Below, in pieces: positions 4,625-27,810 of a DNA stretch of 64,000 nucleotides. The translations under genes were made by a program, and so were the position numbers. The stretch covers positions 1 to 64,000 of the forward strand of contig NZ_JARRSA010000013.1 of assembly GCF_029624655.1 (NCBI RefSeq). Direction: 5' to 3'. Origin of the DNA: Roseicyclus salinarum. GTDB lineage: Bacteria > Pseudomonadota > Alphaproteobacteria > Rhodobacterales > Rhodobacteraceae. The notes below the pieces were generated by a model, which did not search any database, was not told the DNA's origin, and saw nothing but the letters and a program-made list of their open reading frames with translations. Every line of letters begins with the position of its first letter. The first letter of the stretch is position 1.

Positions 4625-4709
4625 CAGCATCAATGGAGCGACGCGGGCAACCGCTGCTTCATTACCTCCCTGTTGGACTTAGGCCGAGATTCGTCTCGGC
4701 CTTTTTTTT
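4625..4709 (+). ncRNA. Candidate small RNA (or leader) with an exposed CCTCCC linker
   Basis: After the LysR gene the sequence folds into two hairpins. The first pairs AATGGAGC (4632-4639) with GCTTCATT (4656-4663), then GCGG with CCGC around a GCAA (GNRA) tetraloop at 4647-4650. The second is an intrinsic terminator. The 18 bases between (4664-4681) are unpaired and start ACCTCCC, complementary to a ribosome-binding site. A weak promoter (TTGCCT 4593-4598, AT-rich hexamer at 4616) would start it near 4625. A second locus near 26.7 kb has the same plan and nearly the same linker. It may be a trans-acting RNA, or a leader of the acetyltransferase gene whose ATG is only 17 bases past the T-run. 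The 5' end is a guess. Confidence 0.55.
4682..4709 (+). terminator. Rho-independent terminator
   Basis: GGCCGAGA (4682-4689) pairs with TCTCGGCC (4694-4701) across a TTCG tetraloop and is followed by eight T (4702-4709). This is the clearest intrinsic terminator in the window. Confidence 0.9.
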
Positions 4710-26641: not shown

Positions 26642-26706
26642 GATCGTCACCCGGTCCTTCCGCGCCGACCCGCTGCCGGCATCCCGGAACGAAAATACAA
26701 TCTTAA

Positions 26707-26812
26707 CCTGTTTGCGCCAGTGTGGGTTTCGGTCCTGGCCACGCTGGTCTTCGGGGCCGACTTCCTCCCTGTCGACTGGCCGCGTCCGCCCCCCCCCGGA
26801 CGCGGCCTTTTT
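26707..26812 (+). ncRNA. Candidate small RNA, second copy of the CCTCCC-linker type
   Basis: In the gap upstream of the HerA gene, a TACAAT hexamer (26696-26701) could start an RNA near 26707. Its 5' part pairs CCAGTGTGG (26717-26725) with CCACGCTGG (26739-26747, one G-U pair). An unpaired stretch contains CTTCCTCCCTGTCGACT (26761-26777), followed directly by a strong terminator. The order hairpin, CCTCCC linker, terminator is the same as at 4625-4709, and the linkers share CCTCCCTGT and GACT. This repeated arrangement is the main support. The -35 is poor, so the promoter class is open. Confidence 0.5.
26778..26812 (+). terminator. Rho-independent terminator with a C-rich loop
   Basis: GGCCGCGTCCG (26778-26788) pairs with CGGACGCGGCC (26797-26807) around an eight-C loop and is followed by TTTTT (26808-26812). 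Confidence 0.85.
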
Positions 26813-26875
26813 CATGGCGCGTCCACCGCTTGCGGCGCCCTCGAACGGACGTCGCGGACGGCCCGAAATTGGTCG

Positions 26876-26904
26876 TTGACGCATGATGAAAGCTGCCGTA
26901 GCGT
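26876..26904 (+). promoter_or_regulatory. Candidate sigma-70 promoter for the ialB leader
   Basis: TTGACG (26876-26881, five of six consensus bases) and TAGCGT (26899-26904) are separated by exactly 17 bases. The predicted start is near 26911, about 250 bases before ialB. Confidence 0.5.
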
Positions 26905-26910
26905 CCCCTC

Positions 26911-26981
26911 CAGAAAGTCGGCCAGTCCGACAGGGAGAGAAAAAATGCAAAGGGTCCGCTTGTCGGACCCTTTCGCTTTTT
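26911..26981 (+). ncRNA. Candidate leader RNA or small RNA upstream of ialB
   Basis: The predicted transcript begins with a hairpin GTCGG-CCAGT-CCGAC (26917-26931). A good Shine-Dalgarno AGGGAG (26932-26937) and an ATG (26945) follow, seven bases apart, and then an intrinsic terminator. The ATG opens a 48-codon frame to 27091 that runs through the terminator stem. Translation of it would unfold the stem, so the unit could act as an attenuator for ialB, or simply be a short RNA. Neither is proven. Confidence 0.4.
26949..26981 (+). terminator. Rho-independent terminator before ialB
   Basis: AAAGGGTCCG (26949-26958) pairs perfectly with CGGACCCTTT (26964-26973) across CTTGT and is followed by CGCTTTTT (T-run 26977-26981). 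Confidence 0.85.
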
Positions 26982-27159
26982 GGCTCCCCGATACCTCCCG
27001 CGCGCCACCGCTTTTCCAACCCCGAGCGGCGCGCGCAGCCCCGGCGGAGATCCGCACGCAAGCGCGGCGGAGGCGGGGAATTCGCCCCTGACAGGCGGCG
27101 ATCTTCGTGGTAGCGACAGGCGTCGTTTACAGGCAAGACCATCAGGAAGAGACGAACAC

Positions 27160-27810
27160 ATGCGCCAGATCTTGCACCTCATCCGCCCCGCCGCCGCCGT
27201 GGCCGCGCTGCTGGGCCTGCCGCTCGCCGCCGCCGCGCAGGAGGCGGCCACCGAGCCGCAGCCGGGCGAAGCCTATGTGGCCGGGAGCTTCACCGACTGG
27301 GAACTTCGCTGCATCGCCGCCGCCGAGCCGGGCGCGCCTGAGCGCTGCGAGATGTTCCAGCTTCTGCTCGACGACGAGGACAACCCCGTGGCGGTGTTCC
27401 GCGTGAACGTGCCGCTTGCCCTCGCCGAGGAGCAGGTCGCGGCCGCCGTCATCGTGACGCCGATCGAGACGCTGCTCGCGCCGGGCGTGCGGCTCCGTAT
27501 CGACGAGGGCGAGGTTGCGGGCATTCCGTTCACGCTGTGCGAGCCCTCGGGCTGCCTCGCGCGGATCCCGCTCAACGAGAACAACGTCGCGGCCTTCCGG
27601 GCCGGCGGAGACGTCTTCCTCGAGATCTTCGCGCTGGTTCGCGGCGACGTGGGCGAGATCGGGGGCGTTCCGGTTCCGCTGACCGCATCGCTGCGCGGCT
27701 TCACGGCCGCCTACGAGGCCCTGCAGGAGCGTCACGCACCCTTCGCCGAGGCGATCGCGGCGGCGCGGGCCGAAGGCGCCGCCTCCACCGAGGACGCCCA
27801 GACCGAGTGA
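27160..27810 (+). CDS. Invasion-associated locus B family protein
   Basis: A 216-residue secreted protein of the IalB family, first named in Bartonella but widespread in free-living alphaproteobacteria, where its function is unclear. A signal peptide is visible (RPAAAVAALLGLPLAAAAQ). The mature part has the family's opening FTDWELRC, a cysteine pair in ERCEMFQLL, and a second pair in FTLCEPSGCLARI. The ATG at 27160 follows AGGAAGAG. The C-terminus is an alanine-rich helix. A promoter-terminator unit lies upstream and a strong hairpin downstream. Confidence 0.88.
   Translation: MRQILHLIRPAAAVAALLGLPLAAAAQEAATEPQPGEAYVAGSFTDWELRCIAAAEPGAPERCEMFQLLLDDEDNPVAVFRVNVPLALAEEQVAAAVIVTPIETLLAPGVRLRIDEGEVAGIPFTLCEPSGCLARIPLNENNVAAFRAGGDVFLEIFALVRGDVGEIGGVPVPLTASLRGFTAAYEALQERHAPFAEAIAAARAEGAASTEDAQTE

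Follow-up and report, generated by a model that had tools for sequence, protein, structure and literature searches.

The locus analysed here lies in a window of 64,000 nucleotides from Roseicyclus salinarum and appears to encode two short RNAs in tandem, called A and B below, in the interval between a HerA-like ATPase gene and an ialB-like gene. The features concerned, including a locus 22 kb upstream in the window that is related to A (locus 1), are the following:

4629 to 4709, plus strand: locus 1, a SorY-like, alphaR8-type sRNA according to Rfam scores
25064 to 26641, minus strand: gene of a HerA-like ATPase, the conserved left neighbour (Pfam HerA_C, 710 bits)
26728 to 26812, plus strand: RNA A, a predicted SorX-like/alphaR8-type sRNA, based on its fold, homologues in relatives and Rfam SorX; start inferred
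26729 to 26760, plus strand: 5' hairpin of A (UCGGUCC/GGGCCGA) in the MFE structure, adjoining the linker
26761 to 26777, plus strand: linker of A, CTTCCTCCCTGTCGACT, a putative anti-Shine-Dalgarno-like pairing site, based on sequence, shuffle count and alignment
26778 to 26812, plus strand: intrinsic terminator of A (stem 26778 to 26807 and T run), from terminator prediction and consensus fold
26876 to 26904, plus strand: promoter-like sequence of B, TTGACG-N17-TAGCGT, which recurs in B loci
26911 to 26983, plus strand: RNA B, a predicted sponge or target-mimic sRNA about 100 bp 3' of A, found with covariance model R1; start inferred
26917 to 26937, plus strand: core of B, GTCGGCCAGTCCGACAGGGAG, a small hairpin (GTCGG/CCGAC) followed by AGGGAG, from the alignment of relatives
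26920 to 26937, plus strand: stretch of B complementary to the linker region of A (26765 to 26781) and to the SorX and SorY linkers, from duplex energies and a window scan
26949 to 26983, plus strand: predicted terminator of B
27160 to 27810, plus strand: ialB-like gene, the conserved right neighbour (Pfam IalB, 99 bits)

This arrangement recurs in relatives. Among 80 named B loci (L064-L143; 80 of at least 118 listed), a HerA-like gene lies upstream of B in 71 and ialB downstream in 69, several of the remaining loci being truncated where the sequence examined ends; A was found by a strict rule in 55 of the same 80. From the 80 listed titles of named carriers, we take these to be Rhodobacteraceae or Rhodobacterales, together with a few MAGs titled Alphaproteobacteria or Pseudomonadota. 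Just upstream of ialB there is a promoter-like sequence, CTGACAG...TAGCGA (27087 to 27119), and similar sequences were seen by eye in relatives.

RNA A and the alphaR8/SorX/SorY family

The first-pass annotation had drawn a 5' hairpin, an unpaired linker and a terminator in that order over positions 26707 to 26812, and the latter two elements hold whereas the hairpin does not. The linker was read as CTTCCTCCCTGT, which is indeed present at 26761 to 26772 and belongs to the full linker CTTCCTCCCTGTCGACT, and the terminator stem at 26778 to 26807 begins with GGCCG, as claimed, and is followed by TTTTT. The proposed hairpin, CCAGTGTGG/CCACGCTGG, can be drawn (nine pairs, one of them G-U) but is not used in the MFE fold of 26712 to 26815. 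We dropped it as the working structure because the MFE favours another, the hairpin from 26728 onwards being that at 26729 to 26760. The CCAGTGT arm of the rejected hairpin is, as judged by eye, part of a motif recurring upstream of A in relatives. This motif is probably a promoter, and the start of A is therefore more likely to lie near 26728 than at 26707.

The fold of 26728 to 26813 has a z of -3.8, and none of 200 shuffles was equally good. A hairpin abutting the linker is present in six of the nine A sequences that were folded singly. The consensus fold of 17 aligned A sequences contained the terminator only, with changes on both sides at four of its seven pairs; the 5' hairpin was not recovered in it owing to the sequence divergence of that part. 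As for the linker, CCTCCCTG is unchanged in all 19 aligned linkers, which had themselves been selected by CCTCCCTG, and CCTCCCTGT has two occurrences in the window where 0.24 would be expected (two or more in 1 of 100 shuffles).

Two other observations concern the surroundings of these elements. The motif upstream of A reads ATACA...TTAACC...GCCAGT (26693 to 26724 in the window), and its parts were counted with search windows that differ between loci with and without A: TTAA[CT] is upstream in 158/174 loci with A and 22/60 without, ATACA in 116 and 29, and [TC]GCCAG in 99 and 32, respectively. TTAACC may be part of the promoter of A, and the remainder of the motif may be the divergent promoter of herA. 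In addition, GTCCTCT is common to the loop region of the 5' hairpin of A in L013, L014, L015, L016 and L021, where it is a possible second pairing site.

RNAs of this kind are already known, namely the alphaR8 RNAs MmgR and SisA-D, and SorX and SorY in Rhodobacter, which have been studied as singlet-oxygen resistance RNAs. The alphaR8 design comprises a hairpin, an internal single-stranded UUUCCUCCCU core and a Rho-independent terminator (PMC12559287, accessible part). The corresponding parts of A are the hairpin at 26729 to 26760, CUUCCUCCCU, which agrees with UUUCCUCCCU at nine of ten positions, and the terminator at 26778 to 26807. A thus resembles MmgR and the other alphaR8 RNAs (Rfam suhB, RF00519) in having a hairpin, a single-stranded CCUCCCU and a terminator, but scores only 15.1 bits with that model (E 5, gathering 41), and we therefore name it alphaR8-type and no formal member. 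With SorX and SorY (RF02784 and RF02651) it shares a linker of the type CCUCCCUGUUGGACU that follows a hairpin and precedes a GC-rich terminator. Unlike SorX, A sits between herA and ialB and reaches only 18 bits with the SorX model (E 0.26, gathering 46.6; up to 39.2 bits for A of relatives), and its linker is most often CUGUCAGACU (79 of 175 loci).

The earlier suggestion of a paralogous family with a shared pairing site, to be extended by a genome-wide search, is borne out by three copies in this genome: A, the SorY-like locus 1 and a SorX-like copy on contig C45. Locus 1 carries CCTCCCTGTTGGACT at 4665 to 4679, as had been stated, and stays below all three gathering scores, with 54.6 bits for SorY (gathering 111, E 3.9e-10), 41.6 for SorX (46.6) and 35.2 for suhB (41). 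The third copy (C45:8062; SorX 29.0 bits, gathering 46.6) is directly downstream of an OmpR-type regulator gene (Pfam Response_reg and Trans_reg_C), that is, in the position of its 3' UTR, and R. sphaeroides SorX is likewise reported to lie behind an OmpR-type response regulator gene (PMC8625941, accessible part). The predicted alphaR8 design is common to A, locus 1 and the SorX-like copy. It should be noted that covariance model R2 was built with all three copies included, so that its top three matches in this genome are not independent proof of the family. Three of the further R2 matches were inspected and rejected as alphaR8 RNAs: L231 and L235 are both terminators, and L237 is an RBS on the opposite strand. 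In the family at large, the exact 15-mer CCTCCCTGTTGGACT is present in 223 of 248 genomes, mostly once or twice per genome, against a single match for the reversed control. The initial interpretation thus stands as regards the sRNA family, less the drawn hairpin; what it missed is RNA B, an antisense partner that is conserved and lies some 100 bp 3' of A.

RNA B and its complementarity to the linkers

A search with the linker pattern also matched the opposite strand at 26924 to 26938, within the core of B. In a BLAST search with 26680 to 27000, 18 of 41 relatives had matches, and conservation was highest over the B portion. Covariance model R1, built from 17 sequences, has strong matches (E<=1e-9, counted by hand) in 201 of the 248 family genomes, a cut-off that misses some true weak B. 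Higher counts were set aside: that at E<=0.01 (232/248) because the window's genome has matches other than B with E as low as 3e-7, and that of a pattern with three mismatches (220/248) because its reversed control matches many genomes too. In a class sample of 289 genomes, R1 scored above 50 bits only in the genome of the window and in three further genomes from its family; weaker matches in other families were taken as terminator noise. An Rfam search with B gave no credible match, and a term search of published papers on the sRNAs of R. pomeroyi and P. denitrificans produced no entry that matched A or B.

After deduplication, 235 B loci were available, at most 118 of which come from the listed matches to the exact core. 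The core base frequencies therefore lean to the consensus, the G counts given here coming from the remaining loci. At core position 16, outside the small hairpin, A is found in 185 and G in 50 loci, and at position 14 A in 220 and G in 15; at both positions either base pairs with the U of the linker. Position 8 varies more widely (A in 175, G in 38, C in 15 and T in 7 loci), and some of its variants break a pair. Within the small hairpin of B, the variation consists of G-U wobbles only, and no compensatory pair was found. TTGAC-N17-TAnnnT precedes B in 229 of the 235 loci and two more have a spacing of 16 or 18, a nearby TTGAC having been among the criteria by which these loci were chosen. The B of L024 has one extra A, and that of G011 (L018, around 1550-1580) has extra bases, possibly forming small hairpins, between core and terminator.

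The complementarity of B to the linkers is extensive. The antisense match covers the linker and first terminator bases of A through GGCCAGTCCGACAGGGAG of B, where one base is bulged out in the window, and the linker of SorX and SorY through AGTCCGACAGGGAG of B, where one pair is G-U; B is thus complementary to several alphaR8-type siblings, as a sponge of such RNAs should be. The predicted duplex energies with B are -38.1 kcal/mol for A, -34.6 for locus 1 and -37.0 for SorX. In a scan of the core of B over 8528 window segments of 50 nt, A (-39.9) and locus 1 (-39.4) came out as the strongest partners, its own antisense strand aside, on a background with a mean of -19.1 and an sd of 3.6. The cofolding scores are modest, dinucleotide-shuffled versions of B being as good in 2/100 cases with A, 1/100 with the SorY-like RNA and 3/100 with SorX (1-3%), while cofolding of B with a same-sense candidate target mRNA was no better than chance (93/100 shuffles as good). 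Folding of the window RNA from 26905 pairs the GGAG of B with an upstream CUCC; the exposure of AGGGAG hence depends on where B truly starts.

The same relation is seen across relatives. In the 175 loci with both RNAs, the mean energy of the cognate A-B duplex is -37.4 kcal/mol, against -21.1 with shuffled linkers. Swapping the partners among loci gives -37.06 (sd 0.07) and none of 200 swaps was as good, although the effect is small (0.3 kcal/mol) and kinship was ignored. Matched changes occur in L017, where A reads CTTGCC and B reads GGCAAG; the changes in A of L014 (CTCGCC) and L020 (CTGACC) are unmatched, the B of both loci keeping GGCCAG. These 175 loci were identified by the strict rule for A, CCTCCCT plus TTTT, which misses degenerate copies such as those of L072 and L116; L114 ends at a contig edge. 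In the other 60 of the 235 loci, including L018 and that of Cereibacter flavus (L125), A was not found by this rule and B is kept, so the constraint on B must come from other partners, and SorX and SorY fit this role. Moreover, a perfect match to B through GGAC was seen in only 19 of the 175 linkers of A, and A may therefore not be the main partner of B. This points to a secondary role for A, or to a pairing that is imperfect by design. The SorX/SorY linker and a strong B occur together in 197 genomes, the linker alone in 26, B alone in 4 and neither in 21 (Fisher p 6e-14, kinship ignored).

The core of B also looks like a copy of a type of mRNA site. A B-like pattern, AGTCCRACARGGAGR, has four exact matches in the genome: B itself, the strands antisense to locus 1 and to SorX, and AGTCCAACAAGGAGG (L237, G000:C67:152961), which forms the RBS for a solute-binding-protein gene of the NMT1 type and is complementary to the SorX/SorY linker at 14 positions out of 15. 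A similar sequence, AGTTCAACAAGGAGA (L308, G000:C21:22321), precedes an SBP_bac_5 gene and pairs at 13 of 15 positions, one of them G-U. Of 17 target-like sites inspected in this genome, four have an ATG at most 13 nt downstream, and Pfam searches on two of these four confirmed both as belonging to solute-binding-protein genes. Pairing of the linkers with an RBS is plausible on this basis, and the sites agree with the transporter mRNAs reported as SorX and SorY targets (PMC8307010, accessible part). One linker site with a single mismatch, L004, was considered as an mraZ site and rejected, since by eye it lies among GNAT-like reading frames instead.

A candidate sponge and competing explanations

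We consider it probable, with moderate confidence, that SorX, SorY and A have in B a sponge or target mimic. In this model, A would be an sRNA of the alphaR8/SorX type in which a 5' hairpin and a terminator flank an exposed CCUCCCUGU linker able to pair with an RBS, and B would be an sRNA transcribed on its own, with a core that mimics a target site of the RBS type. The AGGGAG of B would catch the CUCCCU of a linker, after which the small hairpin of B would open to yield 14 continuous pairs (one G-U) with SorX or SorY and about 17 with A, presumably with the involvement of Hfq. B would thereby sequester the three RNAs, and perhaps trigger their decay, such that these sRNAs would become active only once stress lifts them above the level of B. 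The prediction is precise to the base.

There is a precedent for such a role. In Caulobacter crescentus, CrfA, which is induced by carbon starvation, pairs with four alphaR8 sRNAs according to RIL-seq and structure probing, with compensatory mutations in the case of SisA (PMC12559287, accessible part). Like CrfA as described there, B is a short G-rich RNA, antisense to the CCUCCCU core that several alphaR8 paralogues of one genome have in common, and the action that we propose for it is sequestration. However, B has strong matches only in its own family (class sample of 289 genomes), pairs with a longer CUCCCUGUYGGACU site, adjoins an alphaR8-type gene and has a promoter-like TTGAC-N17-TAGCGT. 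On paper, then, B would work like CrfA, but no homology between the two was seen in the class sample and from the published description of CrfA.

The roles might be reversed, with B an ordinary sRNA that has mRNA targets of its own and A, together with SorX and SorY, a decoy that sequesters it. B adjoins A and is more conserved, and A is variable and missing, by the strict rule, from 60 of 235 loci. We nevertheless regard this reversal as unlikely: the reported targets of SorX and SorY are transporter mRNAs (PMC8307010, accessible part), the sponge in Caulobacter is the G-rich partner and not the CCUCCCU RNA (PMC12559287, accessible part), and the exact 15-mer of the SorX/SorY linker (223/248 genomes) is what is expected of a target-binding site. 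The position of B upstream of and on the same strand as ialB (the 69 of 80 named loci mentioned above, from at least 118 listed) would also fit a leader or attenuator of that gene rather than a free sRNA, but we find this improbable, because B has a full terminator, which in the window separates it from ialB, because the promoter-like sequence of ialB itself lies 3' of that terminator (by eye), and because pairing with linkers encoded elsewhere accounts for the conserved core.

Identity of B with StsR, which would mean that B is not new, is very improbable. StsR is an R. sphaeroides RNA of similar length (72 nt) that acts on another sRNA (PMC8307010, accessible part), binding UpsM from the mraZ leader (PMC8307010 and PMC8625941, accessible parts). 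In terms of predicted duplex energy, pairing with the mraZ leader fails for B in two genomes: with the 5' part of the Cereibacter flavus B, 196/200 shuffles were at least as good, and with the corresponding part from Rhodobacter sp. YIM 73028, 72/100 were as good (97/100 with full-length B), so that B as StsR is unsupported, StsR having been compared by description only. Finally, A could simply be one more alphaR8 paralogue, and B's complementarity a by-product of a purine stretch, given that AGGGAG resembles an ordinary Shine-Dalgarno sequence and that generic alphaR8 core strings reach only -10 to -13 kcal/mol with B, values that are not fully comparable as the strings are 10 and 22 nt long. 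This explanation is highly improbable in our view: the complementarity spans AGTCCGACAGGGAG and beyond, far past a Shine-Dalgarno sequence, and AGGGAG is not followed by a conserved start codon, the ATG present in B of the window being missing in L011, L012 and L018.

Taking the sponge model further, B could be a near-universal sponge of the Rhodobacteraceae that arose independently of CrfA and controls SorX and SorY, with A as a linked anti-sponge that imperfectly titrates B; we put this forward tentatively, as a doubtful but possible extension. If the anti-sponge reading were true, three layers, namely mRNA, sRNA, and sponge with its decoy, would share one 14-nt pairing code. A limited search of the open-access literature found no sponge named for SorX or SorY, and a conserved sponge in most of this ecologically large family would change how the dosage and targets of both RNAs are read. 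Together with CrfA, B would suggest that alphaR8 sRNAs have repeatedly come under sponge control.

With regard to the number of linker copies, one genome carries the exact CCTCCCTGTTGGACT twice on the same strand, 140 bp apart (G168:C3:795435 and 795575), possibly a tandem sRNA pair.
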